A DNA stretch of 64,000 bases from assembly GCA_021234155.1 (NCBI GenBank), contig JAJEKV010000002.1, forward strand, positions 10,964,725 through 11,028,724, written 5' to 3'. This document shows, piece by piece, positions 15,207-46,136 of the stretch. Numbering within the stretch: position 1 is the first letter of the stretch; each line of letters opens with the position of its first letter. The notes beneath the pieces are model-generated. The model was not told the origin of the DNA. It worked only from the letters and a program-made list of their open reading frames with translations, and did not search any database. This DNA comes from Isoetes taiwanensis (Eukaryota; Streptophyta; Lycopodiopsida; Isoetales; Isoetaceae). The translations under genes and the position numbers were made by a program.

Positions 15207-15231
15207 AAGTCGTATTTAATTAAAGTGGGAC
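15207..15231 (+). repeat. Element 1 left terminal inverted repeat
   Basis: 25 bp, perfectly complementary to 27277-27301. Immediately outside is ATGT. Confidence 0.95.
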
Positions 15232-16440
15232 TCATTCCATTCCCATTTTTTTTCCAAACCCGGTTAATTTACATAAAAAGGAGCACCCCGACCCGAAAAC
15301 TATCCTTAATTCGAATTTTTGAATAAAATTCTGCATCCAAGCTTTGCTGCAGTTTTCCCTGCGAGTCGAGAACAAGAACAATGCAACTGAAACAAAGGAA
15401 ATTCATTAAAGTTTGAAACCGAAGATCTAGTTGAAAAAGAATTTTTATTAATAAATTGAACAGGTACAATGTATTTTACATCGGACGCAGAGACCATGGT
15501 GGTCTTGCTGTCACTACAGTTACATCATCTTGGTAGGTCGTCCACCTTAGGGGATTAACTTGCGGCGCTTCTTCACGCCGACTGTAAGCCTTGGGGGCAA
15601 CCTGAAGAGTGTGGAATGCCTCACGTGGAGGTGCCTCTGGAGCTATCGGCCGACCTATCCACCCGACTTCTCCACTCGCCTCCCGCAGCCTTCCATCGAA
15701 TATGCTCCTTCCCCAACCTCCGTGGATGTTATGCAATGCTTGCAAGATGCTTTGAGCTTCCTGGACTTTCTCTTTGTTCTTCGCCTGTTCTTTATCCCCA
15801 GGGTGTAGCGAGCAACCTCTGAATTCGCGAGCAACCTTATCCCAAAGGCCAGGGCAAAGAGTGTAAGCGTGGCCGGGATCATCGCGGATCGGTATTTCTT
15901 CCGCTTTAGCGGGATCATTGCCGCCTGGGCGGTCTCGTGATGCTGGAGCGGGATACATGCCGGTGTCGGATCGTGCTGAACCACACGGAGCAAGGAGAGT
16001 ATGATTAACAATTACGGTGTCATTAGTCAAAACGAAGAAAATAATGTTGAAATCAAATTACAATGGAGAACATTCATTCCATACAACTGCATCCAATGAC
16101 GTGGGAAGTAGTGTCTTTCTCGACTCGCGAGTCGAGAAAGGCCCATAAAAGTGAGTACAACCAGTGCCTTTCTCGACTCGCTGTCGAGAAAGGCCCAACA
16201 TAGCGTAGAAGCATTATCATCAATAGATTGTGGGTCGCGTCCGGTCCACATAATCAAACATACAAATGGTCTCATCAACAGGACAATCATGAAAGGCATC
16301 GAAAACTCAATAAACAAGTATATTCATTACAAAATGTTCAATACATGTGTTCACGTTTGTTTACAATATTCACACAATTTGACTATCTGAAAGCAGAGGT
16401 CACTCTTCTTGTTCACCAAAATATTTGTCGTCCATAGCTT

Positions 16441-19400
16441 TCATGATCGCCTTGCTCTGGGATCGGGTTCCGTGAGGCTCGGATAGTTCCTAATCACATC
16501 GGGCGACAAGAATGGCAAAGAGGGATTCCGCCAAGGCGGGGACACAATCCAGAAGGACAACCACCTATCCGTCTCATATTCTTCAGGTCGATATGGCTTA
16601 GCAATGATTGTATTTTGCGCGTTATGATAGCACTTGTAGGCGGAGTCGTCTATGATCAGCGTGTTGTGTTTGCCATAGTCCTGAATTGCTCATAAACCCC
16701 GCCCACCTTTTCACCATTATAGGCTTCCCCTTTGTGATGGTCGGATCGAGGTCCCACACATGCTCGACCCTTTCGCTTCCCCAAACGAACTTGAACTTCA
16801 AAACTGAAATGCCGAGAACACCAAGAACATTGACAATATTTTTCTTTGCCATACAAGACCATATGCCCACTTCGAATCCCCGTTCCAGGCACCATTCAAC
16901 AATTTCCTTAGCTCTAGGCCTCGGATACACTATTTTATGCTCCGCTTCGCCTGGATCTGCGAGGTGTTAATCTCGAGGACGCCTTTATCGTGGTATACTG
17001 CAGCTAATACTCCATTGACGTCAAATATTACAAGCTTGGCGGGACCAGCTGGATCCCAGTTGGAGTTTGGCTCTGACCATATTTCCGGTTCATCGGGATC
17101 CAAATGCGGGATCATTATCTTTTCGGGTCCTTTAAATTTCGCCAGGTGTCTTGCTCGATTGTCTTTGGGGAGTGCATTCTCCTCCTCGCATGACGTGAAC
17201 TGCCGTATCCAATGACAATGATCCGGAGTCGTTGACATGGAACTCCCTGAAATGATGACATCCGGCCGAAAAGGAATGAGTTTTCTCGACTCGCGAGTCG
17301 AGAATGAAAAGAAAAGGTATTGAAAGGAAACGAGTTTTCTCGACTCGCGAGTCGAGAAACACCGATAGAGCAAAGTAAACTCACCTCAATCTCAGATTCT
17401 CAAGAATGTGTTCGGCAGCATTCTGGTCTAAACCTTCGACATTCACGTCTACGTCAGCTTGGTCTCCCTCGTCCTCGTCGTCTTTACTGCTTCCATTTGT
17501 CTTCCTCCCCTTGAAATGCTCATGAAGCAGATCCAGGTATGACCGAATGGTTTCAACCATGTCCTTATTTCCAACCACGGATATAGGTTTCATTCCAAAC
17601 AGCATAGCCCCCTGAGAGAACAGGCCATTCATGTACCACTCGCATACAATTTGATCTTCCTCGACCAAGCTGGTTATGAAGTACTTGATAACTCTTGGCC
17701 GGATAGGAATTCTATGTATAGGACCTGTCGCACCATCTTTGCTGACCTTGTCCATCGATGGCACATCCTCCATAAATCTGCCCCTTCCGTGGTTCCATCT
17801 CGCTCTTGAGAGATCATGAACTGCCGAGATAATGATGCTCGCTAGACCACCACTTATCCAGGTCTACAGTCGATCTTGAAATCAAAACCAAAACTATGTT
17901 GGCAAAGCTTGGTGCCTTCGGCAAGCCAAGTCTACACTCATGATCAAGTTCGTATATGGAGTACATGATCTTGTTGGTGAAGTTAATATCAGCTGCCCAT
18001 TGGGAGACAAAGCCCGTTGTCCGATTGCCCTAAGATGCAAAAGACAAGGAAACCGAAAGTATCCAGGTCGGTCATGTCCGCATTAACGCCTTGTACCAAT
18101 TGCTCTATGTCACTTTGTCATAAAAAGGGTGGGGTCTTCGATCATATTGATGACAAATAGTGCCACGGGTCCAGTGCCCTTCACCACCAAATCCCTTGTG
18201 TCCCAAAGTTACCGAGAAATGGGGAGCTATCGTCGGCCTTAAATGGGACCACCCCCCAATCCAAGCTTCCTCTTGAATTGCCATAGCACGCTCGTTCGGA
18301 AAGGAAGGGTTTTGACGTTGCAGCTTCAGCTTGGTGTTGATATAGGGTTGACATAGGCGGTTCAATTCCTTCATGTCTTCCTCATCAAGGGCAGCCTTTT
18401 CCTTGTAATAATCAAAGTCATGGTATTCATTAGATGCAACGTTGCGTAACTTCCGTGATGCCTTCTTCTAACGCCTATTCGCTTTAGGATCGTGGGCATA
18501 ATCCTTTAGCCCCGCATTTTAGAACTCCTAGTCTTCCTTAGCGGGGATTGTTCCATCCAAGATTACGCCTTTGCGTGTCAAGCGTTTCTTTGTCCGGGGA
18601 GGCCCCTCAGTATCCTCTTCATGAACTCGCTTGTCAAACAACTTGGGGTCCGGCCTGGATGGAAATTCTCCATTCTTGTCCTTCAGCTTGCCTCTTGTCC
18701 ATTGAGCCCATATCTCGATCCATTTCTCCCAGACCGCCTCAGTGCTAAGAATGAGGTCATATTGGTCTGAGAGAGACTCCCTGCCTTTCCTTGGTGTTCT
18801 CTTCTTCTTCTCCTCTTCATCCTCTCCCTCATCATCTTCCTGGCCTCCGCCAGTAGAACATATCTGCATAGTTTCTCAAAGGTCTTCCACTTATCCGAGG
18901 GAGCCCTGTTTCCTTTAGGACGCTGAGGACAACCCAATGCTTTCCACTGTTGCCTAGCGTGTATGATCTGGTCAGGATAAGGGCTGCATTCAGTCAACGT
19001 ACCAATGTCGAGCATGATAGTATCTACAAACACCAAATAAACGGTAAATAGTAGCCGGGGTTTCTCGACTCGCGAAGTCGAAAAGTCCTGAATGTCTAAT
19101 TTTCTTTTTACTTCTCTAGGTTTTCGACTCGCGAAGTCGAGAAAGCTCTACATCCTTTGATTTTCTGTGTTCCCCTGGCTTTCTCGACTCGCAGTCGAAA
19201 CCCAAATGATAATCGGGAAATGTTAGGATGGTAGGGCTTTCTCGAACCCAGTGATAATCGGGAAATGTTAGGATGGTAGGGCTTTCTCGACTCGCGAGTC
19301 GAGAATGGAAAGAATGAGAGAGTTATTTACCTTACGTAGGCGCACTTTCGCCGCTATTGTGTTTTGGCGATGGCTAATCTTTGGCGGTTTGGTTCTTGGC

Positions 19401-20604
19401 GTCTCCGCTGAAAGAACTCTGCACTCTCGCAGCATATCTATCCTTGATCGCTGCGGCACCTCCTTCTCCGTCTGCAATACTTGCGCCGCCCTCAGCGAAT
19501 CGTGACCGTCCACTACCCGAGCGGGGACGTCTTTTCCCTTCAGGTCTTCCTCGGACTTCGGTGAACAAGCGACCGGTCGATGCGCTAAAAAGGTATGACA
19601 TCCGCGGGCATTGGATGCTCGCAGCGGGATGTCGCACCATCAGGTTCGGGAATCTCCGGCATGTGTCTTTGATTAAATTCCACATGGTTGAACAAGGCGG
19701 CATCTCCCGTGCAAACCTTCACCGTCTAATGTCCAAGCGGCGGCTTGTGTGATATTCCTAACGGATATCTTGAGCGGCCGCTCCATTTTACGTGCCCCTC
19801 TCGTGAAATCCTGATCGATCATCTGGATCCATTATTGGGGAGTCGACCATATCTTCGTCTCCTTCGTCATATGACTCCTCCCGTGTGGTGTCATCTTCTC
19901 CATCTTTGGTCTTTGGCGGACTTTTTTCGTATGAACCACAACTTCATTCCCCACCGCAGAGTGTTGTAGAGTCTTCAAAGCGATTAGAAGTGAAGCTCCC
20001 CATATTGAATCGTTTTTCTCGACTTTCTGGAAATCTCCATTCCAAGCTCCACGGATGTTAGGGTTCCGGCCTCCTTCATCCCTTCGGATCCTTCCACCCA
20101 AGGTTCTCGACAATTTAAAGGCGCCTTTTTTTGGTGCCCTTTGCCTTGCTCATGGAAGAGTGAGAATAATTTGAAACCCCATAATTTTTGGTGTGATAGA
20201 ACTTACTCTTTCCGGGTCCTCGACATGTAGTGTTAAATGCTTGAATCTGGCCGAGGCGGAGAGCACAACACCGATTTTCTTGTACTTGTCTCGGGAGCTC
20301 TTCTTGTCCCTTTGGTGGAGAAAGCGGATCTTTCTCCTTCCCACTTGTTGATACCTCGACATACCACCAAGAATCTGGCTGGTGTGTCAAGAAGCTCTGT
20401 CTCCGTCCCTCGATGGCCGAAGAACGGAGTTCGACGGTGATCACTAGTGACTCCGTGGTGAATCTTTGCAAGACCAAAGGATGGATCGATAAAGGTATTC
20501 CGACCAAAGAAAAACCTCGAGCTCACACGGCGCTGTCTTTTTCTTCTTGTTGCCGCCGGAACCGGCTCACCTTGGCGCCTAAGCTTCTTGGGCCGAGTCG
20601 CCAT
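16441..20604 (-). CDS. FCP1/NLI-like HAD phosphatase carried by element 1, multi-exon
   Basis: The C-terminal 200 residues are a HAD fold of the FCP1/NLI-interacting type. Motif I is KLVIFDVNGVLAAV (about 17010-17050), with Asn where FCP1 enzymes have the second Asp. Next come PRPRAKEIVEWCLERGFEVG and WSCMAKKN. Last is motif IV, NTLIIDDSAYKC (about 16630), then AKPYRPEEYETD, with a stop at 16441. Upstream minus-strand frames (17385-17773, 18105-18374, 18528-19036, 19374-19703, 20115-20604) are long, charged and probably its N-terminal part; a candidate start is MATRPKKLRR at 20604. Introns 17247-17384 (GTGAGT...TTTCAG) and 19024-19330 (GTAAAT...TTTGTAG) are well formed. Frame breaks occur, for example between RWAG and DYGKHNT near 16680. 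HAD enzymes of this type dephosphorylate proteins; why a transposon carries one is unknown. Confidence 0.68.
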
Positions 20605-23600
20605 GTCTGTATGCCCCGCATCTTCTTCACCTTTCGAACCCTTGTGTAAATTAAGTTTCCTCCGTAGCGTTGTAGGTTTTAGGACTGCGTAAAAAGATCG
20701 GGCGTGTTCTTTAATTTGAATTTAAGGACATGCAATCATTTAAGAAAAAAAGCGGGCTAAGGGTACAAAGATGCCCGCTTTAGCCCGCCCAAACCCCATT
20801 TCAAATTGAATCACATCCGGGGATTCCCCGAGAGCGCGGTGTAGATTATCTTCAACGCGGCATTGGCGACTTTGAGTTGGGAGGCGAGCATCGACCGTAG
20901 TTTTACTTCCGAATGGCGCCAGCGACGGCAGAAGTCTCACACTCACAAATCGGCCTTGCTATGTGTATTTTTCCCGACCGTCTTATTGCAAGCAGTTGAT
21001 TTGATCGATGAGCACGAGCTAAGGTAGGAAGCGGAGAGGAGCCGCGGACACCTGAACTCTACACCGCCGCGCCATGGAACGGGGATACACCAGAATCGCA
21101 TTGATACAAGTATTAGATCTAATGCATCGTTGATGAGACCTATTTAAGAAGCAAAGACTTTCGGTGAGGCTGCGGGATCTGGCTCATACAATGGCCCAAG
21201 GAATTCATCACGTGAAGAGGTGAGTTTGAACATGCCGCCGCCTGTGTTATTTTTTGCGTGTAGAACATGTAAATACGTGTTTAGATCATGGAACTGCTCA
21301 TAAGCTCGACAGATTTATTGTTTCCTTGTCGAGCATTTTTCAGCTTCGAGAGATGATTTACTCTCTGGGTTGAGAGATGCTCGGCACGGAAACAATGGAT
21401 CGGGGGTTAACGTGAACAGTTCCGTTTTAGGTGTGTTCTTTCTTGGAATGCATACTCCTGTCTTTTTTTTTAGATGTGTTTCAAATGCATACTACCCTCT
21501 CGGAACCACTCCTCTTCGCAATATTCGAGGAATGTGGTTCGAAGGAGAGTGGCTCCGACATAAAAACAGGAAAATACAAACAGGAGTGCTTAGTTGTAGA
21601 GGCCTGTGCTACGTCCCAAATGCCTGGAGACAGTCAGGGCCACTTCCCTTCGCAATATTCGAGGAATATAGTTTGAAGGAGAGTGGCCGAGACTGTCTGC
21701 AGGCACCTGGAGATTGCTATGTGGGAGCGGGCATTGCTATGTGGGAGCGGGCTAAGGGATTCTCGACTTACTTGAAGTCCGAATGCAAGTCTTTGGCTGG
21801 TTTAAGGCATTCCCAGGCTTCATGAGTCGAGAATCACGGAACATCAATCTCAATGGTTTCCCTGTGGTTGGTTGTAGAGGCCTCCACCCGGTCAGGCCCC
21901 CTCCCTTCGCAATATTAAGCGAAGATGGTTGAAGGAGAGTGGCTCCCCGGCTGGTCGAGCCCTTCTTGCGACCATACCGGGAGGGAGGCTGGTAGGCTGC
22001 GACCATTCTCGACTTCGGTCGAGAGGCACTGTGTTGGGATGGCTAAGGATTCTCGACTTGCGGTCGAGAATGCAAAAGTGTTAACTCCTGTCTACATTCC
22101 CAGCTACTCCAAGTCGAGGATGCCTTAACCATCGAGAACTCGGATAGTACACATGGGTCTTGCGGGCGGATAAGGCATTCTCGACTCATGAGCGAGAATG
22201 CATGCCCGACGACAGCTTCCGCGGGTTTCCACAGTGGTTAGTAGTAGAGGCCTCCCACTTGTCCGAGCCCATCCCTTGCAATATTCACTCTAAGATGGTT
22301 CTAAGGAGGCGGGTCTTTGATTGGGTGGGAGGCTGGGCCACACACACAGAAGGTGGGTTGCCTGGAGTTGGCAGACAGGTCAAAACCACTTCCCTTCCTT
22401 GTGTCCCAGGAAGATAGAAGGAGAAAGGTTAAGGCATCTACTTGGCGAGCCGACAGAGATACTGCACTAGAACCTAGCGTTTTCTCGACTCACGAAGTGA
22501 GAAAGTCCGATTAGTCGCCGAGGCCTCCACCCGATCGAGCCGGTCCTCTTCGCAATATTACGATGAGCATGGTTGAAGAGTGACTCGGTGGGTGGAGGCA
22601 CTGCTGACGCACAAAGGGGCCATTGACGAGGGGTGACATTCTAATTCTCACGAGTCGAGAGAGGCTGCAACGAGGCTTAAAAAGAATGTGAAGACATTGG
22701 GTAGGCTGTGTGCAATCCCAGAATCTTGAGTCGAGAATCCCTCAACCAGGCCAGCAGTCCGTAGTGTACACTCCCTCTTCTGCGCCTCGCTGAGTCGAGA
22801 AGTTCTCGACTCGCGAGTCGAGAAGAAGGCTGTACTTCTTCTGATTTGTTGGCAAGCCGGTATTCTCAACTCGCCACTCCTATGTCTCTACTTGTGGAGG
22901 ATGTCTTTGTGAGTTAGAAATCACAGTCTCGTGAAGCAATCCCTATTCTTAGTTCTTCTTGGGAGAAAAACATTCCTAGTTATGTTACGTTATGAAACAT
23001 TCTTAGGCAGTTTAGCTATATCTTTTGTGAATCTCTTACATTAATGCTCGCAATATCTTACTTCCTAACACCGTCTCGATGAGTGACATCTGGTTGCTTG
23101 CTACTACTCTAACCACTATTCTCACTTGTGCACGTACAATGTATTCAATTCAACCACAAGCAAGAAAAAGATAACAAAAGCAGAAAACAATACAAAAGGA
23201 AAACAGAAAAAGTGAGAGATTAGTGAGATTAATGAGAAAACAGAGAAACAAAGGAGACAAATGAGATTAATGAGAAAAACAGAGAACGAAAGATGAGGAG
23301 AAATGAGATTAAAAAGGGTATGATATTACAAAAACATACACGGAAGATTTCTTTGGATGAGGAGGAGGCTTCGTGTTCGATTCCATGTGGGTATAGTCGT
23401 TATAAAGCGTGAATAAGGATTTGTCGGTATGTAAATTGTATCGAGGATTAATAAGAGCCTCTAACAACAGAATATAAGTAAAAATGCAGAAAACTAAAAA
23501 GCAGCACTAAAAAGGGCCTCACTTTCTTCTCGGGCGATGCGCCCGCTCGAACACTCAATCTGCAGCGAGAACTTCGGTACTGGAAGTCCCTGATCCGTCG

Positions 23601-23935
23601 ACCAAAGCTCTTTGTCATAAGATGGCCTTGGAATGGCTCGGTTCGATCGATCGCCGATCGAAAAGCGGTAGCTTAAGGAAAATCTGAGCTTCGAAGAGTG
23701 GGGAGGAAGAATGGTCGGGGGGGAGAGGAAGAGGGTGCGATTAATTACAGGGCCGCACCCTCGAACCTCGTAAAAAGTGCAATAATAAACTTACATCGCG
23801 TGTGGGCCATGCCCTCCATGGCGTGGCGGTCTGGGAGTTCTTGACATGGCCACGCTTTAGCGCCTCGAGGAGGCATACGTGGCCATGACAAGATATGAAA
23901 GGTCGGGTTATATGTTTATATATGTTACCTTATAT
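20605..23935. promoter_or_regulatory. Divergent intergenic region of element 1
   Basis: This separates the minus-strand HAD gene from the plus-strand transposase-like gene and should contain both promoters. It holds many of the TTCTCGACTCG palindromes and, at 21490-22610, a degenerate repeat series. No coding domain is recognisable in either strand. A polypurine stretch at about 23165-23320 (agaaaac, agagaaac) marks its right part. Confidence 0.5.
21490..22610. repeat. Degenerate repeat series around CTTCGCAATATT
   Basis: Five copies, near 21514, 21648, 21906, 22275 and 22547, share CCYTTCGCAATATT followed by a stretch such as ATGGTTGAAGGAGAGTGGCT. Most are preceded by TAGAGGCCTCCACCCGGTC-like sequence. 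Spacing varies from about 130 to 370 bp and palindromes lie between copies. It may be an array of protein-binding sites or just old tandem duplication. Confidence 0.7.
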
Positions 23936-24160
23936 ATTTAATATGGTTTCAATGGTTGAATAGTTTTAATGGTTATATATGGTTACAATGTTTACATATG
24001 GTTTAGAATGAGTATGGTTGTATGGTTTAATATGGTTATATGATTTTAGTTAATATGGTTGTATGATTTAATATGGTTATATTTAATATGTTTGTATGGT
24101 TTTATATGGTTCATATGGTCATATTTGTGGTGTTTGGGGCTATATGGTTTTAATGTGAGC
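23936..24160. repeat. TATGGTT-rich degenerate minisatellite
   Basis: The words atggttatat, tggttgtatggttt and ttaatatggtt recur in plus-strand order over about 220 bp. Simple-sequence slippage is the likely origin. Confidence 0.75.
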
Positions 24161-24331
24161 TTTTTCATTCGGGGGAGCATGTGAGATGAGTAAAATGGAG
24201 CCAAGGAAGTCCAATGAGGAGGCCATTGCCCTAGGCTCCAATGGAGGAAGAAGGGTTGCCTTTTGTTGCACCCTTGCAACCCGGGCAGTATTTGAGAGGG
24301 CATAATAACTGCAGTTGATCCATTTGATAGT

Positions 24332-27067
24332 GTGAATGATGAGAGGCCGGGAGATGAACATCTTGGAGTTGGCATTGTGAAGCTTCTTATCGAAGTTGAT
24401 ACAATCATGTCCCGTGGAAGCTCTAGTGATTGCATTGTGTGCTTTCGAGGCTGCTGGAGTCCCAAGCTTCGGTTGAGATGGCCGATTAGATATATTACAC
24501 ACAAGAATGGTGATACTCTAGAATGCCCTCTTGAACTACACACCCCAAGGCCCACCCAAGGCCATGTGGAAGATTTGGTGGTCGATGAGCATCCTTTGAT
24601 CACAAGGAAGAGACGCTATGTCTTTCATAAAAGCGACCAAGGGTGCCCAAGAGGCCTAGAAGTGACAAATATTTAGAAAGGATGGAAAGTATGGCACCAA
24701 CCGAGAGAAAACACGGAGGCAATTAGGGGACAAGAGTGTTGCAACCTAGATTGCACGGTCAAGATTACAATGTGGATGACCTCGTGCGGATAAGGTCCCA
24801 ATACATTGGGCGACTTCAAAAGATAGGATTAATTTCATTTACTCCTTGTGTAGGAATTCCGCTATGATGAAAACACAGGGATCTGGCTACTATATCAATT
24901 GAGGGGCATGAAGGTATGTATGAGAGCATTGAGATGGATTCTTGGGGTGAGCAAGTCTTCATTTTACGAATCTTTTGGAGGCGGGTTAGAAAAGGGCACA
25001 ATTTGTTCCAACATGGTAATGCACTCACTTTGAAACCTAGAGCAAATACTCTCAAGGCCATTGCGGTCTTGAGAGCTTTGTGAGATACATGTCTCAATCT
25101 ATGCCCCACAAGTCGAAGGTGAGCGAGCACGGTGTGCGAGTGGTGCAAAAATGTTTGCCACAACACTATATCCAAAAGGAGTGCCTTAAGGAGGTCAACT
25201 CCATCCCGGAAACTTTTGGAGGTAGGCCTCTTTCTCAATCACATTTCAGCAAGTTATGGAGCACTCACTTCTCGGGGCGTGAGTGTCCTACAACACATGC
25301 CATTCTCAAAGTGCAACACTTGCATTCAACTCAAGGATACACTTGCATCAACTGCAATAGAGAAAGAAAGAATGGCAATTAGGGAGCAATTTGAGATCAC
25401 CAAAGGGACCAAATATCATGTAGACAGTTGTATTGGCGGTGGAGAACATTTTCTCGAGATGCAGCCGGACACAAAGTTTTGTGTATAATTCATGATAAGA
25501 TGGACCAACACAAGACTTTCTTGCCAAAGCTAGATCCTTTACCCAAGCGTTGTCAAAACGCTTTTTTTGATGAAAGTAAGTCCGGCGGGTGTATTAACAC
25601 ATGGTCATGGAACTGGAACATATGGTCATTTTGTGCTTGATCTATGGAGAGATGATCCAAACTTCCATGTGAGCTCTATTTTCAAGTGCCCGAGAACACT
25701 AGAGAAAGGATCGATAGAAGGGAGGAGGTATTCCCCTTCAAAGACCCATTTTGAGGCTTTGATGGATGATCAACAGCTTTGTTACCAAAGGCGGATAAAA
25801 AGCTCACATCCAAGGTGTCTAGTGAATCAAGGAGGACTTGGGATGATTTCCCCTTACTTGAGAAATCATTTGCTGAGGAGCTATGTGTTGATTGGACAAC
25901 CTGTTGGAAAGAAAACAAGAATAGATGGATGTTTGGGGCTATGTCATACTTGACAAGATGGGGAGTATTCAAAGTTGTGAAAGTGGGATTCATGATGGTT
26001 GGGCATACGCGATGATGATATAGATGGATTCTTTGGAACTTTCTCCACCAAGCTCAAGAGAGAAAAAGCGTGACCACTCTCCACTGAACTAATGGATGTG
26101 TTTGAGAGCTGCATTGACCCCAACCCAATGGCTTTCTTGATGGATGAGGTTGCGGATTGGAAATCATTTGTAGAAGGATACTTGCTAGATGGTAAGGACC
26201 GGTTAATGAGGACACACAAAGCCACTTCAGTTCAAGTTTTGGGTTAGGGATGGAATACCAATCATGCAATATAAGTGGAGACCGGTGACAAGTTGTGGAT
26301 GCCTATACAAGGTATCGAGTTGTGGCAAAGGGGTCTTTGCTGGTGAAGTTCTCATTCCTAAAGGGCAGCCAAAACCACTACCTCCCTTCAAGGCAGTCAA
26401 AGACTCTAGCCAAGCGGTGAAGGGCATCAAGGATTATATAACGCTTTGGTGTTGTTCAAATGGAAAGCACACCTCCACTCTTAAGAAAAATCAAATGGAC
26501 TCCCTAATCAAGTCTTGGGAGAAAGTTGTGACATGCTTAGAAACCCGAGCGACCATGTGGGAGGGGAGCTAAGAGGCGGGTTCTTGCCCGAGTCAAGATG
26601 GGAGGGTTCTCAAGGTGCAAGCACGTCTAAGAATGCTCACTTGGGTCCCAGCAAAGGGTTCCAAGTGGTTTGTGGGAAGTAAGGCCTCAAAGCCGAAGTG
26701 GTTTGATCTTCCCGAGTGGGATCCCTTTGAGGACATCAAGGAAGGATACTTTGTGCTAGTAAGGCGATGATGAGGACTGTCCAATATGGTTAGGGGTGGC
26801 ACTCTCGATGTAACCAGCACTATGCCCGATGGAGAGGAGTTGCGTCCCGGATTCCAAATTCAATCTTGGGGAGCCCATTGGGAGACACAAGAAGGGCAAC
26901 TTGAAGGAGCAATACACCGGCTGGGGGGGAGAAGAAGTGGAGGGCAAATTATGCTGACCCTCAAAGGAGGGAATTGGTGGAGTGTGTGGTATGGTCATAT
27001 CCAAGTTCTCACGTTGCAAAGGACAACACACACAAGATCCCAAGAAGGGAGATGGACAAGGCCATGA
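24332..27067 (+). CDS. DUF7869-like RNase-H-fold protein, candidate transposase of element 1, frame-disrupted
   Basis: In plus-strand order the region encodes FSKCNTCIQLKDTLAS with ERMAIREQFE (about 25300-25400), HDKMDQHKTFLPKL (about 25491-25535), GVLTHGHGTGTYGHF with RDDPNF (about 25586-25665), LDN then CWKENKNRW (about 25895-25930), VKVGFMMVGHT followed by DDIDGFFGTFSTKLKRE (about 25974-26060), and a C-terminal part with SDDEDCPIWLG (about 26765-26790). This order of D-MDQ, LDNC-ENKNR and MVGHTHEDID is what I recall for DUF7869 proteins, which look like RNase-H-like nucleases with acidic catalytic residues. Single-base shifts interrupt the frame, including one inside LDN-C near 25895. The start and first exons (24332 onward) are uncertain. 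It is the only transposase-like gene inside the terminal repeats, so I infer it mobilises element 1. Confidence 0.72.
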
Positions 27068-27276
27068 GCAACCTCCATGCTATATCATTGTATGAGGGTA
27101 CATAATATTGAGAAGTTTGAAAACTTTCTCAACTAGTGGTTTGTAAAATTTATGAGGAAAACAAGTAACCCAATTCTATGTGTGTCATGTGTAATTCTAT
27201 TCAAGCAATCAATTCAGAAATTTCTTTTATGGTGTGTGAGTCCCATTTTAAGTCCGAGTCCCAAAATTCAAGATTT

Positions 27277-27301
27277 GTCCCACTTTAATTAAATACGACT
27301 T
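27277..27301 (-). repeat. Element 1 right terminal inverted repeat
   Basis: Perfect complement of 15207-15231. Immediately outside is ATGT (27302-27305), the target duplication. Confidence 0.95.
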
Positions 27302-30701: not shown

Positions 30702-30703
30702 AG

Positions 30704-32028: not shown

Positions 32029-32115
32029 ATTATTACATAAGTATGGTGCATTAGATGTAAATTTTGAAGAATGGAAATTGTAGTTGTAGCAATAGGCCTG
32101 CCAAAATTTACATCA

Positions 32116-32220: not shown

Positions 32221-32353
32221 ACGAATATTCATAACTATTTCTTGAGTTTGCAGGACTGGAGACCCCTTCGATGCAATTGATTTGGAAGCAAGTATCTTGA
32301 GAAGGGATGGACCCATCTCAAGTGCATTCGGAAGATCGCGGACGATCTTCTTT

Positions 32354-32366
32354 AAGAAGGGATGGA
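32354..32366 (+). promoter_or_regulatory. Polypurine tract of the TR-GAG element
   Basis: AAGAAGGGATGGA lies directly before the 3' LTR (32369) and would prime plus-strand DNA synthesis. Confidence 0.75.
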
Positions 32367-32368
32367 AT

Positions 32369-33468: not shown

Positions 33469-36230
33469 GTTAAATTGTTAAATATCTTCACAAAAACAAG
33501 CTTAAAACAACGCTGACTGTAACTTTATATATTCAGAAATATCTTCACAAAACCAAGCAAAACCAACGCTGGCTGTAACTCCACATACTCAGAAACTAAT
33601 ACAAGGATTTTACCAGACAAAGATGGATCTCCAGATATTGAGACTAAGCTCCCCTTCTGCCGAAATCAAGGTAAGCCACAGTGCTTTAAAACAAAACTTT
33701 CTGTCTGCACAACAAAACCTTCGGTCTGCACAAATCTAAACAAACTGAGTTCTGAGTGCATGCTCTTCAATCCAATCGATCCTGCACTTGCGTTTTCAAC
33801 ATATAATCAGAGTATAGAGCAATCAATCAAAACAACCTCTTCCGGAATCCTGCTTCCGGGTTGGGCAAGAGTTGCGGAACCTGCAGCAGGATCCGATTGC
33901 GCTGCAGAACCTGCAGCGGGATCCGATCGTCCTCTGGTCAGTACCAGACTACCAGCATTCGATTCGATGCTCAATCTGTCACACTGGCTATTTGCTTTCT
34001 CCTGTCACCTTCGTCACACCCAGGACGTCCCTTTTATTGATTTTTTTCTTTCCACCGACATGCACAGAAATTGACATGTGTTCTTCCAATATAAATTATC
34101 CATAGTAAAAAACCATGAACCATTACATATGGCATACATATGGCATGATATACTAACACTTCCCCTTCATGTTATATTATCTAATACCGAGTATTTCTTT
34201 GGATAGCGTAAGCTTTGTTTCCGTCATGGCTTTAGTGAACAAACCTGCTGCTTAATATGAAGTCTCCACATATTGCATGACAATCTCATTTTTAGCAATA
34301 AGATCTCGTATGAAATGAATAATTCAATATGTTTAGTCCTCTCATGATGCACATGATTTCTTGCTATAGCAATACAACTCAAACTATCAGTCAGAAGCAC
34401 TGTAGGATCTGTTTGAGGTATACCTATTTCAATCAACAATCTCTTTAACCAAACAATTTCTTTTGCAGCTAGGGACGATGCGGTATATTCTGCTTCTGCA
34501 GATGACATGGCAACACATGATTGTTTTTTGCTCCTCCACGATATTATACCTCCTGCAAGTATTAAAGCATAACCTGAAGTAGACCTTTTGGCATCAAGAT
34601 CTCCTGCCCAGTCTGCGTCTGTATAAGCAAATAAGGTCAGATTATCTGAATTGAATGTAATTCCATGGTCTTTCGTATCCTTTAAAGAAATATCTGGACG
34701 AGTGCAGTTTGCCACATAAAGCAGACACCCAATAAGTTTCCTATATGGAATATTCTCCATTTCCTTCTTTTCAGATTCTGATGACGGGCAAAGCCTGGCT
34801 GAGATTTTATATCCTGCTACAATAGGAGTACTCACTGGGTTTGCATTTTATAGTCCAAACCTTTTATCATATTCTCTATGTTCTTTGTCTGACAGAGCTT
34901 AAGCATTCTATTTTCTTTGTCTCTGTTCATTTCAATTCCTAGGAATTGTTTCAGTTCCCCTAGATCAGTCATTTTGAACCTTTGCTTTAGAATTTTCTTG
35001 CATTTTTATAAGCATTGTATGCTATCTGCAGCCATTATGCAATCATCAACATACAGAGCAATAATGCAAAATTTACCTTTATGTCTCAACATGTATATAT
35101 TTCCGTCATTAATAAGCTTTTCAAACTTTTGCTCGATCAAATACTTGTCCATGCATTTGTACCATTCCCTAGATGCTTGCTTCAATCCATAAACTACACG
35201 TTTCAGCCTCCAAACCATATTTTCTCCTTTTTCAAAACCTGGGGCTTGCCTCATGTATATTTCGTCCTGCAGACTAGCATTTAGAAATGCAGTTTTTACA
35301 TCCATATAATGTCCATCAAGTTTCATAGCATTAGCTAGTGCTAAAACAATTCTTATACTTGTTAATTTCACAATCGGAGAATACGTCTCATCATAGTCTA
35401 TTCCTTTCTTTTGAGAAAAACCTTGAGCAACTAATCTTGACTTAAACCTTTTTGACCCGTCAGCATTTGTTTTGACTCTATGAATCCATTTGTTTCCAAC
35501 CAAATTTTTATTTGCTGGACATTTCACTAGTTCATATGTACTAGTTTCTTTAAAAAATTCCATCTCTTCTTGCATTGCTTTAAACCATTCAGTGCTCTTT
35601 TCTGAATTTATGGCATCATGAAAGGATTTAGGCATCTCAGGTTCAAATACAGCCATCAAGGAAGGATATCTAACTGGGGGCTTTCCTATTCTCCTACTTT
35701 TACATGTACCATATCTTCCATACATTTCGGGATTATAGTCTATACCTGTATCTTTGAGTTTTTCTACCTCCGATTTCCTTTTCCGTTGCATTATCGGTAC
35801 AGCTTCTGCTTGTGATGGTTGTATTCCATCGTCATGTCCTTCTACATTCTCATTGCCTGCTTCATCTTCTTGGTCTGAATCTGTGTCACTAATGTCAGTC
35901 TCTTTTGAACCATTATGAACATTTGTGCTATCATATTTACATTCAATTTTGGGGTTTGCAACCTCATGCCTATCTTTATAAAATTTATTTTCATAAAAAA
36001 TGACGTCTCGACTAATTATCACTTTTCTTGTTTTAGGTATAACGATTCTATAACCCTTTGATTCCTCATCATAACCGACTAGGAATCCTATTTCTGCCCT
36101 ATCATCCAATTTCAGTCTTAATTCCTCAGGTACATGAACATATGCCAAACAACTATAAGCCTTGAAGTAATCATATGCATACCCTGACTTACCTTTGGAC
36201 CAATACTTATATCTTGGAAAGTATTTTAAT
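33469..36230 (-). mobile_element. 5'-truncated Ty1/copia retrotransposon
   Basis: The minus strand runs integrase C-terminus, reverse transcriptase, RNase H, a purine tract (AAGGGGAAG, about 34159-34167) and then TGTTAGTATATC, the apparent start of a 3' LTR at 34158. The LTR's other end may be near 33469 (ending TTAACA on the minus strand). Gag, protease, most of integrase and the 5' LTR are missing: homology stops near 36230. The left boundary is tentative. Confidence 0.75.
34224..36190 (-). pseudogene. Copia pol fragment: integrase end, reverse transcriptase, RNase H
   Basis: From the minus-strand 5' end: GYDEESKGYRIVIPKTRKVI (end of the integrase region), then reverse transcriptase with LVAQGFSQKKGIDYDETYSP, MDVKTAFLNASLQDEIYM, VYGLKQASREWYK and the catalytic ALYVDDCIMAA (35006-36148). 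After a frame break between 34835 and 35006 come PYRKLIGCLLYVANCTRPDI and RNase H with AYTDADWAGDLDAKRSTSG and MSSAEAEYTA (34224-34835). The missing N-terminal half and the frame break make it non-functional. The order integrase then reverse transcriptase identifies copia rather than gypsy. Confidence 0.9.
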
Positions 36231-38150: not shown

Positions 38151-38483
38151 CTTGCCGATAGCTTATTGCCAGACGAATGTTGAGGATGTCGCTCACTTCA
38201 CGCCTTCTATGACGCTCCCTGCTAAATATACGGCACCCGGCCGTACACTCGGCAGGAATTCCCCCATCCGGTCCATCAACCGCATGGGCTCTCCGTCTAA
38301 CCCGCACTCTGAGAGAATCCTAGTGTCTTGCGCGCCCTTCCCCTATGGGCTCCTATCACAGCGGAAGCATAAACAACGTCAGAACAAGCAATAACAATAC
38401 AACATACTACCTCGAAGGGTAGTCCATCACATATCCACAACTGCAAAGAAGATAATCCTATGCCATAAAACATGAGAGCTCCT
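38151..38483 (-). repeat. Chromovirus LTR-like segment left of element 2
   Basis: Read on the minus strand, GATGGACTACCCTTCGAGGT and the following bases align with 14376-14460, directly continuing the LTR copy that stops at 46141 on the other side of element 2. The far end of this LTR is not defined. Confidence 0.5.
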
Positions 38484-38513
38484 GGGTGAAAGTATGCTGG
38501 TGGGTAGCAAAAA
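38484..38513 (+). repeat. Element 2 left terminal inverted repeat
   Basis: GGGTGAAAGTAT...TGGGTAGCAAAAA; the mate at 46106-46136 differs in the short middle part. TCCT lies outside. Confidence 0.82.
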
Positions 38514-38809
38514 AACGCGACCCCAGCACCCAGCACCAGCACCCTTCATACTATTTTTTCCACCCTTCAACAATTGAAGTGTAACCTATGCTATGCCCGT
38601 CACTTCACATAGGGCGTACCCGTTTCAATCATAACCTTCTTACCGCCCACCGTAACTAATGACTGTGACCTTTTCGAACTTTGAATTTGTAATTTCGAAC
38701 CGTGCTCCCCACCTTTTGCTACTCCGGCCAAATAGCCCGCGCAGAAGAAGCTCTAGAATTTCCGGATTCACTCCAAGCTTAGTATTCCAAAACTCAAACG
38801 CCAAAAACT

Positions 38810-41800
38810 ATGGTGAAGAAGGTTGTTAATCCGCCGGCTCAGCCAGCAATTCCAATGGATGCCATGCGCAGGGTAAGCAAAATGCAAATCCAATTTTGAT
38901 GGCTTATGGTGCCCTGTTAATTTGTTTTTCTTGATTTCTTTCAGCCCAGAAGGAACGTGCCCCTAAGACCCGACCTGGCTGATTGCCGAACTGAGGAGGA
39001 CTTCCATGCCTACGCGGGTCTGTCAAACGAGGGTGTGCATCCCTCTCAATTTCGAACGGATGTGATATCTGCAGCAGAATATAATGAGGTTTGGGACACC
39101 AATGGTGTCATTCCGAACAAGACATCCATCGACAAAATAAGGCCAGAGCACGAAGAAGCTCTAATTGAGCTGTTGAGCAAGATATACCCAGAAGGATTGA
39201 AGAACAGAGAAGTAAGGAAGACGGTTTCCTTTTTATTTGCATTCAACAACTGCAAGAGGGCCAAGCAGGATCCAGAAAATTTCAAGGTCAATTGGGCGCT
39301 ATGGCAAAAAAAAGCGAAGCCTATTCGAGCAAGGTCAAGAGTGAACCCAAAGACCAAAGGCCCCGGTGAAACACAAAGCAGAGCCCAAAGAAATCACAGC
39401 AGGATAACAAAGACTGAAAGCATTGCGGAAAAGCCCGGCCTCGGCGAATCAGAAAATTAGAAGGGAGGTTGTCATTCAGAGTACTTCAATGTGTCCAAAG
39501 AAGATTCTCAAATTATGGGGAAAATATTTCCGTCTGAAAAGCATGATCCAAGATATGCAGAAGCCCTAAAATTGCAGCCAGAATGACCTAGTGTCAAAGA
39601 AGGAACAGCCGCACAACTGGCAAAGGGAAGCTTCTTCTCTACCGCAGAGGGGAAGTTGAAGACCATAAAGGATAATATTGCACGCCTTCAAGCAGCGCAT
39701 CCTAATGCGTGTATCTGGCGAGATTCATACTTTGGAGAGGGAGAAAGATATGGCGTAATATATGTTGAAGTCCCTACTTGAAATGGGGGTGGGCCAATAG
39801 ATCAAACACTGTAGAAAAGGTGGCTGCACTAATCTGCCGAGATTGCCAACAACGAGTCCCTCCTTGCAAAAGCCCAAAGACACTTAAAGAATGTCACCAG
39901 TGAGGGAGATGACCAAGAGAAATGATCACCGGTCGATCACTCCAATACCATTCCGATTGCCAATTGGAGATGAGGAGAGATGCTCCACCTGTGGTCTTGC
40001 ATTCGAGGATGATTACACCCTCAGCCTGCGGATGAAATGTGGACATCATTATCACGTTAGCTGCACCAGTTTGCTCATGGAAAAAGGATCTTTGCCTCGA
40101 GTGCCACAGACCATTCCCTACCGGCTTAGTGCGTGAAATAGGTAAGCTTAATACAATGAAAAGCGTGAAGTGTTGCATCTTTGAACAGCTCACAAAACCG
40201 AGAAGAAGATAATTGATGTTGATGAGCATGTAGCCACAACTCCTGGTAGCAGCAGGAAAAGGAAACAACAAATCACACCAAAAAGTAAAAGGACCCCAGG
40301 ATCAGCCAAGCACAAGTCCACAAGGGTTCACACTCCACAGCCAAGACATGGGAAAAAAGGTACATGCACGTTTTTGGTGCTCGATTTTGAATTGACAAAG
40401 ATCGGAAGGTCTTTGTAGACATTGGACGACAAACTACCAAAGCTTTTCTTGGACAATGCTGCGGCACTTGGCGGACAAAGGTTTGGAGACACTAAAGAAT
40501 GCTTGAATCCAAGGGAGATTCAAGTAGTAGTGATGGTGCCAACAATTATAGTATAGTTCCAAATTCTCGCAATGCCTCTACAAAGGCCTCCTCTAACACT
40601 TCAAGTTCGCGGGGAAGGAAAAACGATGGCGAAGATGTCGGCAATCGATTGAGACGATCGTTAAGCGGTGAAACGGGTTGACCCGGTCAAGGGCCGGAAG
40701 GTTATGGAAGAAGAAAGTGAGGGTGAGTCGAAAAATGACCTTGATGAGGGCGTCCCCATAGAAGTAGCATTTGGAAAGAAAAACATGGCTAATGTAATTT
40801 TGCCTTATGTATTTCGTGCAAGCAAACCTTGATTTTGCAAGACAACCCTAAACCATCGGTAAAAAGGTTTTTGTTCAAACAATTAATATATTTGATCCCC
40901 GTTTTATTCCACCTTTAATGTGCAAATTTTGGTTTGGATTATTCAACTTAGGATTCGTAAAAAACTTGTCTGCGAAAAAAGAAGGCGACCAATGGTTATA
41001 CTTAGTGAATCGATGAAGAAGACAATCTGAGATAAAGAAGTGCCAAAGACAAACTCTAACATACAAAAGGTGCCTCATTATCCCGTTATATTTCGAATGT
41101 GTTTCAGAATTTCAGTTGTTAATTGCAGCTCATCCTTGCATGCAGGAGAACAAGACAATTCGTGAATGAAGAAACCGAGGACAAAGGCAAAGCAAGGGTT
41201 ACCGATAGCCGGAAAACACCCATACATTGGGGCGTGGAGATACCTATAAGGATGAATCGACTATGGCTATCGGCACTCTCCATCATCCGGTAGCAAAGAT
41301 AAAGCAGAGTCCAGCCAGTTGCGGCCTTTATCCGGCCCACCTCCCGATAGCACTTCCCGCCAGAGTCCGGCACACATTGCGGCCACATTAAAGCACGATG
41401 CAAACACATCGGCAAGGTTGCAAGCGTCCAAGGATGGACACCCGGCGGAAGTTGATGGTGCCGGGCGTAAAATGGTGTCTTGCACGCACCTATGAGGGAG
41501 AATGAACGGGAAAATCTTGCCTCCACCACAAACGAAGCATGTTGTAAAGAAACGCAAATAAGTACCTCATTTGCGCACCGGGGGTATCATGAGTTTGTGG
41601 AGTGGGCAATTCGCAGGGTTTGATATTGTTATTTGGAGTGCTTCTCTACTTGAATACAAGGGAAATGGTGGATGCATTGTTCCCCGATTTGCGGACCAGA
41701 TTCTTGAAGGTTTATGGTCAAGAGCATTGCTATGCATGCAAGCATCCAAACAGCACCCAGAAAAGCAGATTTTTTCAAGGAGTTGAAGGTTGTACTTGAG

Positions 41801-42130
41801 GATTTTCCTCAAAAATCATGGTATGATTTTCTTGGTTGATGACAGCCCTACACAAAGGGTTTCTAAACCCCCGCACACACAACCCTTCCCATTATGCCTT
41901 TCAAGGGGCAAGAAGAGGACAACTTTTTGCGAAGTTTGTGTGTCCAACTTTGGAATACTTGACTTCCCATTCAAGATGTGAAACGCATCTCACAAAGTTG
42001 ACATCAATCGATGCATGGTTGGAAGAGGAGACAGGTTGTAGTGTTTGGATTACCGCCTCAACAACTATCTTGTCTCGGCCTACTATATCCTCAATGCTCC
42101 ATTAGAAGTACAAAGGCAAATTGGCCCCTT
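38810..42130 (+). CDS. RING-H2 plus FCP1-like HAD protein carried by element 2
   Basis: Exon 1 (38810-38872, MVKKVVNPPAQPAIPMDAMR) joins through a GTAAGC...TTTCAG intron to exon 2 at 38945 in phase 0, and the frame stays open to 39460. Next, about 39985-40135, comes a RING-H2 finger: CSTC, then KCGHHYHVSC, and after one frame change LCLECHRPF. A Ser-rich linker follows (about 40500-40680). The C-terminal part (about 41560-41950) resembles the FCP1/NLI HAD fold: HEFVEWAIRR, FDIVIWSASLLEYKE, FPDLRTRFLKVYGQEHCY, FKELKVVLEDFP, then LVDDSP with GFLNPRTHNPSHYAF. These lie in alternating frames because of single-base shifts. HAD motif I was not found. A ubiquitin-ligase-like finger with a phosphatase fold is unusual; the role is unknown. 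Confidence 0.62.
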
Positions 42131-42479
42131 CCCGGCGACCAAAGATGACTCAAGACTTCGATGACTCATGAAGTAACCATTGTACAAAGATTTTTTTTGT
42201 AATATATATGTATGATTACTTTGTCTTATCTTCGTTATTGAGTGATATTGAGTGATGTTCTAATCTTGAGTGTACAATTTTCTGTAATATATATCAAGCT
42301 TACTCTCCAATACTACAAGCATTGTTTCCAATACTAAAATACTCCAATAATTCAAACCAATACTACAAACATTGTCTTAGGGCCATTGTCTCCAATACAA
42401 TGATCAAAATTTGAGACAAGTACACAAGTAACTACAGATTTGTTACAATGATAAAACAACTAGGCCAAGCATATTCAAC

Positions 42480-45400
42480 CTTCATATGGCGGTCATCAAG
42501 GATCATCCGTGAGTAGCATGTTCAAGGGAAAATGCATTTGGTGCCGTGAATCGATTCATCTCAAACTTGATAGCCGATCACGTGATGACCGTCTCGGAAA
42601 GTCGCCTTTGTCTTCAAGTAGCTCCCAACTACCATCCGGGTCGGGCAAAGATAGTACAAAACCAGCCAACACATGTTCATCCACATTGAAGGTTCGACCC
42701 GGCTATCCTTGACAATTACGTCAAGGATATGCCTCGACTTGACACATTTGACCACATAGAAATCTGCATTCTCCTCGATTTCCACGCCGGGCTTCAACAA
42801 AGAAAGTTATCACCTTCCTCGCTTTCCTGGATAGCCATTCTCCATCACCTTCAAAAATGCCTCATCGATTTCGCCTTCGGTACCTTCACCAAGAGACTTA
42901 TCCGGGCTTTAGTGTAACATATTTCCAATTCTTCAATCAGGCTTGTTCACACAAGATGACCAGTTTCCTTTCAAACAGTTACCACAGAAACAACTTAAAC
43001 CTCTATGAGCCACCCTTGTGCTTGATTTGGCCAAGTATGTCCGGATGCTGTGTATTTGCTTGGTCCCTTCCACCCTGGCACAGTCCAGCGGGTCTGTCCT
43101 ATCAACATCATCCTTTCCAATTACCCAGAAGTACCTGCAAGGAAACAACAAGTATTGCATCTCACGAACTGATAATACAAAGACTACTCATCACAAAGAC
43201 AAATAGTCCACAGGACAAAGCACTTAAAGCGGATGAAAGCACTATTCAAAGACATTACAAGCCAGTTCTGGCAAAGACTACTCAACGAATCACAGCGGAT
43301 GAAAGCATAATACCTTTTGATGTCCCCGTTGTTGGTACCTTCATTCCAAATGAGTTCGCGAATTCACAGGCATCAGCAACACCCCTAAATCTCACCCCAT
43401 CATACTTGAGCTGCTCTCTAGTGAATGCCCCTTTAAGGACTGCCCCTTGCCCATCGTGCTCTCCCTTACCATGGGCTGTCCCAAAGAAATTCCATACTAT
43501 TTCCTTCCCTAGCTCATGGTGATATCTTGGTAGGAAATAGAATGGCCGGGCAGATTTGAATTGGCTAGAACAACCATCTGACCAAACTATATGCCTGGAG
43601 AAATCTACACCATTTGATACAAGCCATGAATTGTGCTTTCTAAGACAGTGCTGCACAAAAAGAGTGTCATGAAGCTTGTCATCACTCAAGTAAAAATGGG
43701 TTTCCTTCAATAGCTTTCTGATCCCAGAACTGATGTCCATCCTATACGTGATGTGGACGAGAATTGTTATCTGGTCATTGTGCCAATCTTTGGCTTTGAA
43801 CCTCCTTTGTATTTTTATGTTTGTAATTCTACGCAAAATCAATTCTGAAAACAATGGTGTCATCTTGGATATTGTCCAGCAACTCCTCAATTGCATGGCC
43901 CGCCATCTAGCCCCAGAATTGTGTGGCACGAATATCTTCAATGTGGAACACGGATATGAAATGAAATCCTTCAATGGCGTTCTCTTGTAAGACAATCGGA
44001 GGGACTGCTTTGGTCCTTTCTTTTTTCCCCTTGCCATTTGAGGTCTCATCTTGTCTGCAGCTTCACCTCATGGTCCCACCAGCTTGCTTGGATTTCTTAC
44101 TTTTGTTTCCCTTCTTCTCAACTTGTCTTTGCAGCTTGTTTGGTCCCACCACTACCTTGGATTTCTTACTTTTGTTTCCCTTCTTGGTGGCATTGGCTCT
44201 TTTCTTTTCTGCTGCCACCGGCACCTCCTTGGTAATGCAGTCCGCAACTCCACCAGCCTCTTTCTCGCCTCCACTTGGAATGCAGAACAAGGTCTCAGTA
44301 GCATAAAACAGAAGATTAGCGCAAGTTGAAAGCACAAAAGCAGTTTTCAACGGATGACAACGCACATATCAGCATGTTGCAGCATGCAATAAAGAGAGTA
44401 TTACCTTTTCAAACGTCTTCCATTCAAGCAAGAACTCATGATTCTCTCTCTCTCTTGGACATATAGGAAGAGTTTTTATGCCACACTCCTGACATGTCCG
44501 CATCAAGCGATCATGTTTATGCCATTCTTCACCCCCTCGCTCTTGTTGCAAACCACAGCCTTCCGAGCTCACTGGTTGAGTCATACATATATTGGTGGCG
44601 GACACGCCTCACCAGGTCCACAGACCTCGCGCAGTGCACTTGCACTCTTCACCATGAAATCCGGTTTACGCTGACCTTAATGCATTCAGGGCTACCCTGG
44701 CATACTCCAACTTCATATGGTATATGCAACAACAGGTTTCCCTTTCTGATACTTTCTTTACATAAATAGGCTTCAACTTCTCGAAAGCCTTTAAGCAAAC
44801 AGGGTGTTCAGGATGTGCCTTTTTGTATTGTTGAAATAGCTCCAAATTTGAATGGTGGCCGTTGGTTAGAAATATTTATGCAACAATAGCAAAGAAAAAT
44901 TTGTATGGAAACTTATACCCGTGACCTCCATAAGGTGCAAGGGATAAGAAATTCGAAGCCCCGACTCTCCAACGGTGTTCACAACATCTTTCTTGCAAGG
45001 AGAGACTACGCTATTTTGTTTCCGTGATTATATGCTTTGCTTGCAAGCAGGGGTGAGAGAATCGCACCTCAACCTCCTTTGGAAGCTAGACCACGGACCA
45101 TTTCCAAGGACGGCTTCCGATTTTCTTAATGCAGCAGTTGCAATTGTTGACCTCATGCAACCTATCATAAGAAATATTGCACATTAATCAATGAACATAT
45201 CTCATCCAAAGATCACTCAAAGATATACAAGCACTTAAAAGCACTTAAAAGCACGAAGAAGCACAGTGCATGAAAGCAAGAATTAGATGCACCTAACAGC
45301 CCCGCCATAGTGGAATTGCATCTCGATTTTGTGGAAGAAGCCATCACCGATGTCGAGGTTCGGCTCTCCAAACATCATGGTTCCTTTGCCTCTTTGTGGC

Positions 45401-45950
45401 TGCCATTGTCTGTTCAAGTTGTTGAGCAAAGACCCCCGCCTTGCACTCCTTTGGATTTGGCAAAATTCCGTGTTCGAGATTTCCATTTCGTGGTGATGAA
45501 CCACCCTCTTCATCACATCGGCCTTGAGTTCGGGTGAATGTTTTTGGTGAGCTTATTGAAGTAATCAACTACTTGCTTGGCTATTTCTTGCCTCGTCTCA
45601 TGCTCGATCCTCCCGCTCAATTGCTTTTCTCATCTTATTCCGAATCAGATTCTCTCTTTCTCACGCATCCAATTTCTTGTAAATTGCGAGGAAACCGGAT
45701 CTTCACGTGATATTTCCCGTGTTGCATTGACATCCAACAAATCTGAACAACGTATTGGGATTCATCAGGCGAAAAATCCAATGCTAAACGTGTGATTGCC
45801 TCCAGGCCGGTATCGGGGAGCCATGAAATTCTGAGAGGGAGGATAAGTGAATTGAGGGAGAAATTTCGAAGGCCATGATGAAGTAATCCAATTTGCAACG
45901 TGCTACTACCACACCACTCGCGAAAAATCCAGCCAAAAGCCCACAATCAT
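42480..45950 (-). CDS. RNase-H-like SDGC/HGKG protein, candidate transposase of element 2
   Basis: On the minus strand, in order: FCQIQRSARRGSLLNNLNRQ (about 45430), HPEHPVCLKAFEKLKPIYVK then ETCCCIYHMKLEYARVAL (about 44650-44800, Cys/His-rich), a Lys-rich linker with repeated KKGNKSKKSK (44063-44300), and a long open frame 43282-44049 with KAKDWHNDQITILVH, YLSDDKLHD, HIVWSDGCSSQFKSARPFYF and WNFFGTAHGKGEHDGQGA. After that come RYFWVIGKDDVDR, RGLSCFCGNCLKGNW (about 42960) and NADFYVVKCVKSRHILDVIV (about 42740). I recall this SDD - SDGCxxQFK - FFATxHGKGxxDG pattern from uncharacterised animal proteins; it looks like an RNase-H-like nuclease. It is the only transposase-like gene between the element's ends. 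Exon limits are approximate and some frame breaks exist. Confidence 0.68.
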
Positions 45951-46105
45951 TTTCCCTAACGGCTCGTTCGTGAGGTGGACGGCGAAAGTACATGAAGGGG
46001 CGTAAAAGAAATGACCAGCGATTCATCATCGACACCAGATAAGCAAAAGCGGGGGTGCCGATAAGCGGGCTAAAACCTGCTATAAGCATGCGTCCCGGAC
46101 GATGC

Positions 46106-46136
46106 TTTTTGCTACCCACCAAAGATACTTTCACCC
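46106..46136 (-). repeat. Element 2 right terminal inverted repeat
   Basis: Reverse complement reads GGGTGAAAGTAT then TGGGTAGCAAAAA, as at the left end; TCCT follows at 46137-46140. Confidence 0.82.

Follow-up and report, generated by a model that had tools for sequence, protein, structure and literature searches.

We report that in the genome of Isoetes taiwanensis two lineages of DNA transposons pair their transposase gene, time and again, with a gene for an FCP1/NIF-like HAD domain. The pairing recurs in an orientation that is nearly fixed within each lineage, several elements hold both genes within one pair of terminal inverted repeats (TIRs), and the HAD sequence is constrained. One member of each lineage lies in the window, the whole stretch of 64,000 nucleotides analysed here (contig JAJEKV010000002.1, positions 10,964,725 to 11,028,724; C1018:10964725-11028724 in the 1.658 Gb genome of 1110 contigs that was searched). 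A HAD that recurs in a fixed layout suggests that the elements use it for moving or staying active, and we consider it rather probable that these are two large cut-and-paste lineages, many members of which carry the FCP1/NIF-like HAD as an accessory protein that aids their expression or movement.

Two decayed transposons with a HAD gene

The two elements of the window are whole but decayed DNA transposons. A preliminary description of the stretch had claimed as much, proposing two transposons that each pair a transposase with an FCP1-like HAD, that carry 4-bp duplications and that differ in gene orientation (divergent in element 1, convergent in element 2), and all of this is borne out by the termini and the profile matches given below. 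Since stops or frameshifts interrupt the genes, the HAD and transposase scores for the window rest on read-throughs, which were assembled manually for both elements.

Element 1 (15207-27301; 12,095 bp) ends on both sides in a perfect 25-bp TIR, AAGTCGTATTTAATTAAAGTGGGAC, at 15207-15231 on the plus strand and 27277-27301 on the minus strand, and is flanked by the target-site duplication (TSD) ATGT at 15203-15206 and 27302-27305. It sits inside a tandem array, and the adjoining unit at 14833-15125 matches the joined flanks at 89.8% over 293 columns, across the junction, which identifies that unit as an empty site. The transposase, broken by frameshifts, is encoded on the plus strand (24990-26764) and matches DUF7869 (PF25273, E=1.9e-25). 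On the minus strand lie HAD 1 (16444-17050), which is broken, spread over several exons or frames, and matches NIF (PF03031) at E=1.4e-8, and an upstream gene (17384-18467) in the position that an upstream gene holds in other DUF7869 elements. The single open frames of element 1 give weak NIF/HAD scores (0.003-0.007). The upstream gene shares about 20% identity with the genes at that position in other DUF7869 elements (alignment A2), finds no relative by phmmer in the ten HAD loci fetched from the genome (see below) and is matched by nothing in Pfam, NCBIfam or PDB; motif patterns raise a bare suspicion that it is perhaps a methyltransferase fold.

An 18-bp palindrome, CTCGACTCGCGAGTCGAG, is present in five exact copies, all of them within element 1 (16119-16136, 17285-17302, 17339-17356, 19286-19303 and 22805-22822), where 0.01 would be expected per window, and in none of 80 other loci checked. 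The copies are possible binding sites for a protein of the element.

Element 2 (38484-46136; 7,653 bp) is flanked by the TSD TCCT at 38480-38483 and 46137-46140 and has a TIR of about 29 bp, GGGTGAAAGTATGCTGGTGGGTAGCAAAA, imperfect at its right end, which recurs with few differences at the fetched loci H1037, H1059 and H1033. Its accessory gene, on the plus strand, opens with a conserved N-terminal region (38921-39457), for which homologous frames exist in H1037 (1.8e-68), H1033 (2.6e-78) and H1059 (3.5e-14). There follows a RING-H2 region (39978-40133; zf-RING_2, E=2.8e-5, below the Pfam cut-off), in agreement with the earlier claim of a RING-H2 ahead of this HAD; its C3H2C3 zinc ligands are readable in H1037, H1025 and H1086, and for H1033 and H1059 no single frame was found to hold them. 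Pfam scores for this region in the intact frames of other elements are below the cut-off as well. The HAD fold that had been proposed for 41560-41950 is supported by a NIF match at E=1.3e-9 (HAD 2, broken, 41562-41960, plus strand), and the corresponding frames of H1037, H1059 and H1033 match HAD 2 at 6e-41 to 1.3e-46. The NIF match begins at profile position 30, motif I being unreadable in the window copy, and the single open frames of element 2 give no NIF/HAD match.

Facing this gene on the minus strand is a broken transposase in several exons (42564-45552), of integrase fold and probably of the DDD type. Of 395 candidates, 49 proved homologous to it, the best at 8.9e-60, and its named relatives are only Ceratodon purpureus, a moss, and Calypogeia fissa, a liverwort, in 3 of the 49 rows. 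When the homologue P0001 was modelled, its structure could be aligned with those of retroviral integrases, Mos1 and IstA; Pfam has no model for this integrase-fold family.

Pairing across the genome

A search of the genome with the NIF profile gave at least 151 rows from 3261 first-look candidates, many of them dispersed and with open frames of more than 200 residues. Ten HAD loci, picked to span score classes and not at random, were fetched with about 9.5 kb on each side, and at eight of them a transposase stands in the expected layout. At five (H1037, H1059, H1033, H1025 and H1086, the last with a piece only) a transposase of the element-2 type faces the HAD, and at three (H179, H1027 and H1031) a DUF7869 gene lies on the opposite strand and points away from it; two of the ten are CPL/FCP1-like genes. 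TIRs enclose both genes at five of the ten. As in the two window elements, the 4-bp TSD is exact in four of these (H1059, 7,898 bp, AGCA; H1025, 6,888 bp, TACT; H179, 7,152 bp, AAGT; and H1037, ATCA), and in H1033 it agrees at 3 of 4 bases (TGCT versus CGCT).

The same association is seen when one starts from the transposases. All pairing counts that follow are drawn from the matches listed and are hence lower bounds. For lineage 2, we used 76 of the 77 listed transposase rows, the 77th being a second piece of one gene, and HAD rows selected from three lists (441 rows in total), mainly on contigs with a listed transposase, together with one dummy row. A listed HAD lies within 5 kb at at least 19 of the 76 loci, where about 0.2 would be expected from all 441 HAD rows, and in 19 of 19 pairs it lies 3' of the transposase on the opposite strand (convergent), 13 times at a distance of 1.2-1.45 kb. 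When every fifth locus was read (n=16), a HAD was found within about 4.5 kb at nine, on the opposite strand in all nine; eight were recognised by hidden Markov model (HMM) and one, on C1103, by position. Firm HMM matches were present in five of the 16 first flanks of 1.9 kb (L032, L033, L035, L037 and L043) and, among nine flanks that were extended, in three (C23, C1045 and C908).

For lineage 1, that of element 1, we compared 75 of 140 HAD rows with 50 transposase rows out of 123, of which 49 have an identity of at least 50% and one has 41%. In a search over 60 kb, a HAD from the H179 list lay no more than 36 kb away at at least 26 of the 50 loci, and no more than 12 kb away at 17 of those 26, against about 0.3 expected by chance from the 140 HAD rows, and the pairs are divergent in 25 of 26, the exception being C1068:5438525. 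A second DUF7869 group, with identities of 37-41%, makes up 64 of those 123 rows (one of them also in the lineage-1 set) and was compared with HAD rows selected from 150 of the H1031 type, plus two from the H179-type list; rows outside both groups are further pieces of genes already counted. Here, divergent pairs with an H1031-type HAD occur within 26 kb at at least eight of the 64 loci, 0.69 pairs being expected by chance in any layout within 60 kb. Three further pairs have other layouts and are up to 52 kb apart; one such odd-layout pair uses a HAD from the H179-type list.

Identity, active site and constraint of the HAD

Four intact HAD frames match NIF at 2.5e-18 to 1.1e-21 (66.7-77.7 bits), and the window read-throughs reach 35 and 38.4 bits, the gathering score being 21.8. 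By their profile matches, then, the window sequences are NIF-like; we do not claim an active phosphatase. The element HADs share S/T, K and mostly DD of motifs II to IV with the FCP1/SCP/NIF phosphatases (PF03031) and differ from them in motif I, and they are also set apart in that their genes belong to transposons and lie next to a RING-H2 or some other upstream module. Motif I with two aspartates, DxDx(T/V), was not found in them. DxN stands in its place in HAD 1 (DVNGVL), in eight fetched element HADs and in L065-L073, L075 and L076, and most element-placed or subfamily copies read DMNGVL, DLNGVL, DVNGVL, DINGVL, DLNGAL, DVNRIF or DVNKVF; exceptions are L074, which lacks the aspartate, and L037, which reads EIQGVL. 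The host SCP-like domains L001-L007 have DxD. Motif IV is DD in both window HADs and the eight fetched element HADs, ED in L075-L077 and L043, short of one D in L058, L063 and L033, and in a gap in L065; it was not seen in L037. Two HAD frames of the same broad group, L078 and L079, have ELDGVL here, which puts Glu where the nucleophile would be. The lineage-1 HADs L065-L074 share a C-terminal tail past the HAD domain, PRE.VGSAPGSET and then GYQG.RI.

The second aspartate of motif I is the general acid of HAD phosphatases. As motif I is mostly DxN and not DxD, catalysis is doubtful and binding of a phosphoprotein is possible; a binding role would seem about as likely as catalysis for such a site, and the reading of these proteins as active phosphatases of the polymerase II C-terminal domain is weakened.

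The ratio of nonsynonymous to synonymous substitution (dN/dS) has a median of 0.39 in 20 HAD copies of one lineage-2 subfamily, with 188 of 190 pairs below 1, and of 0.20 in twelve lineage-1 copies, where 40 of 66 pairs were usable and all 40 fell below 1; these copies are open frames ranked by similarity to the query protein, which pulls dN/dS down, and were compared without neutral stretches. Between fetched elements, H1037 gives 0.26 with H1059 and 0.24 with H1033, both with a third-position excess, and the H1059/H1033 pair gives 0.57.

Several observations weigh against an accessory protein that serves the elements. The catalytic residues are not all kept, given the DxN of motif I, EIQ in L037, the aspartate lost in L074 and E-D for D-D in one subfamily. 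The sampling of copies just described bears on the dN/dS medians, and the recent pair H1086/H1025 has a dN/dS of 0.65 with no third-position excess. Six of the 16 sampled lineage-2 transposase loci have no HAD within about 4.5 kb by HMM, and the sampled locus L044, of which 1.9 kb was read, has only a weak HAD piece that overlaps the transposase match. No partner was found among the matches listed at 57 of 76, 24 of 50 and 53 of 64 loci of the three transposase sets, and the layout differs in one of 26 lineage-1 pairs and three of 11 second-group pairs. Finally, a single polypeptide of upstream module and HAD is presumptive, as are the expression, target and activity of such a product.

Origin of the HAD and alternative explanations

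The preliminary description held the two transposases to be distantly similar. The similarity was put too strongly: the transposases of the two lineages show no sequence similarity, and hhalign gives family A1 and the element-1 protein a probability of 0.1%. In a tree of 32 HADs, eight host SCP-like domains stand apart from the rest with 100/100 support, and the centre of the element HADs is poorly supported, with long branches meeting and neither lineage monophyletic as one group. This tree is compatible with one capture, with several captures or with exchange between the lineages alike. With transposases that look unrelated by sequence and a tree that would also fit a single capture, the independence that the preliminary description claimed for the two transposons may or may not hold.

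It is conceivable, then, if somewhat unlikely, that both lineages descend from a common ancestor that already had the HAD, and that we are looking at one system and not two. Both leave 4-bp duplications, and the clean separation of the eight host domains from all element HADs would agree with such a descent. It is harder to reconcile with transposases that lack sequence similarity, with different TIRs and opposite layouts, and with a HAD tree in which neither lineage forms one group and central support is low.

We think it improbable that the HAD merely travels as a passenger, taken from the host on one or more occasions and grown in number because the transposons did, with no role in their life cycle. 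Plant transposons often carry pieces of host genes, and many transposase loci among the matches listed, like the six of 16 sampled, come without a HAD. Cargo is at odds, however, with dN/dS values that stay under 1 in 188 of the 190 lineage-2 pairs and in all 40 usable lineage-1 pairs (in a sample biased to conserved copies), with the third-position excess in H1037/H1059 and H1037/H1033, with one layout per lineage across subfamilies, and with the presence of a HAD in transposase lineages that have no sequence similarity. The preliminary description had itself raised the doubt that each HAD might be a single capture, absent from other copies. That doubt is not borne out: genome-wide, a HAD is found in many copies of both lineages, in a lineage-specific orientation, within TIR-bounded elements and with dN/dS below 1, though not in every copy, as the six sampled loci show.

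No better, in our estimate, is the proposal that the HAD takes part in the transposition reaction itself by dephosphorylating DNA ends or the transposase. Polynucleotide phosphatases are found among HAD folds, and the HAD does stand beside the transposase in both lineages; but the family matched is NIF, which is known for protein substrates, and its motif I here mostly lacks the second aspartate. The weakest alternative, in which the HADs belong to a gene family of the host or to some other mobile element and lie nearby by chance or by nested insertion, is very improbable, and the TIR-bounded elements already refute most of it. NIF-like places do abound in the genome (the 3261 first-look candidates), nine of the 26 lineage-1 gaps between HAD and transposase exceed 12 kb and H1040 is an accidental neighbourhood, but both genes lie inside one TIR pair in two window and five fetched elements (exact TSD in six of seven), a single orientation prevails in 19 of 19 and 25 of 26 pairs among the matches listed, and no HAD match occurs in the 44 kb of window outside the elements.

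A proposed role for the accessory protein

Returning to an accessory protein that aids the elements, we posit that the HAD and the module ahead of it, which is a RING-H2 in lineage 2 and has no known fold in lineage 1, would form one protein. This protein would act in the nucleus, either on the transposase or on some phosphorylated component of the machinery for transcription or silencing, and would thereby favour expression or movement of the element. The preliminary description had put forward a function in transposition or in evading host silencing, for example on the polymerase II C-terminal domain or on chromatin proteins, which we treat as a hypothesis. With asparagine at the place of the general-acid aspartate of motif I, the HAD may hold a phosphorylated partner rather than turn it over, and in lineage 2 the RING-H2 could mark the partner so held for ubiquitination. 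More tentatively, and with distinctly less confidence than in the accessory role as such, we suggest that two unrelated DDD lineages might share, by exchange or repeated capture, a dedicated phosphoprotein-recognising protein, made of a variable front module and a DxN HAD, that would counter silencing or license transcription.

Relation to known systems

The 4-bp TSDs, the TIRs and the sizes of both elements agree with the Sola superfamily, whose members are described, in the excerpts of the source used here, as having a DDD transposase, 4-bp TSDs, variable TIRs and lengths of 2-9 kb, sometimes more than 15 kb, and as present in the moss Physcomitrella (PMC10741241); the comparison is one of descriptions and not of sequences. 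The excerpted description has no mention of a HAD, a RING or a second gene (PMC10741241). DUF7869, which the element-1 transposase matches, is named in Pfam as a domain of unknown function; it is found here in TIR-bounded elements with a HAD gene, and was not named in the literature searched, in which subscription journals were little covered. Within that same coverage, no HAD companion gene of transposons turned up among the matches listed.

The nearest analogue is the TET/JBP gene, one type of host-regulation enzyme that, according to the excerpted source, occurs in several superfamilies of fungal transposons and passes between them (PMC12730594). There, the enzyme is a 5-methylcytosine dioxygenase; here, we have a HAD of the phosphoprotein type in a plant-like genome. 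The anti-silencing proteins of VANDAL (MuDR) elements and the SET-carrying HarbingerS/MuDR elements are likewise described in those excerpts as products of accessory genes that act on epigenetic marks, by regulating or by modifying them (PMC12730594). Those proteins are different ones, and the HAD is known here from its sequence, an anti-silencing function being only proposed.

A shared phosphoprotein-recognising protein, if it does exist, would add one more kind to the anti-host genes that eukaryotic transposons have in common, beside the TET/JBP and SET enzymes. Conserved non-transposase genes, TET/JBP among them, have given clues to the ways in which hosts silence transposons, and a phosphatase-like protein kept by two lineages suggests that mobility is limited by a phosphorylation step, either in the host or on the transposase. 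With many copies, some with intact open frames, across divergent subfamilies, the question is directly testable. There is also a caution for annotation, in that many genes labelled 'FCP1 homology' in such genomes may be transposon genes.

Other features of the window

Between the two elements, 29861-30701 and 32367-33204 repeat each other in direct orientation over 300 bp (100%) and 242 bp (96%) at a spacing of about 2.5 kb and enclose a CCHC-containing open frame (31345-32028); the whole (29861-33204) looks like the remnant of a long terminal repeat (LTR) retrotransposon. Also between the elements, the minus strand at 34224-36148 carries what we take, from its motifs, to be fragments of a Copia-type polyprotein. 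Farther along, at 55198-60175 on the minus strand, three similar open frames (55198-55626, 58508-58999 and 59707-60135) belong to one repeat.

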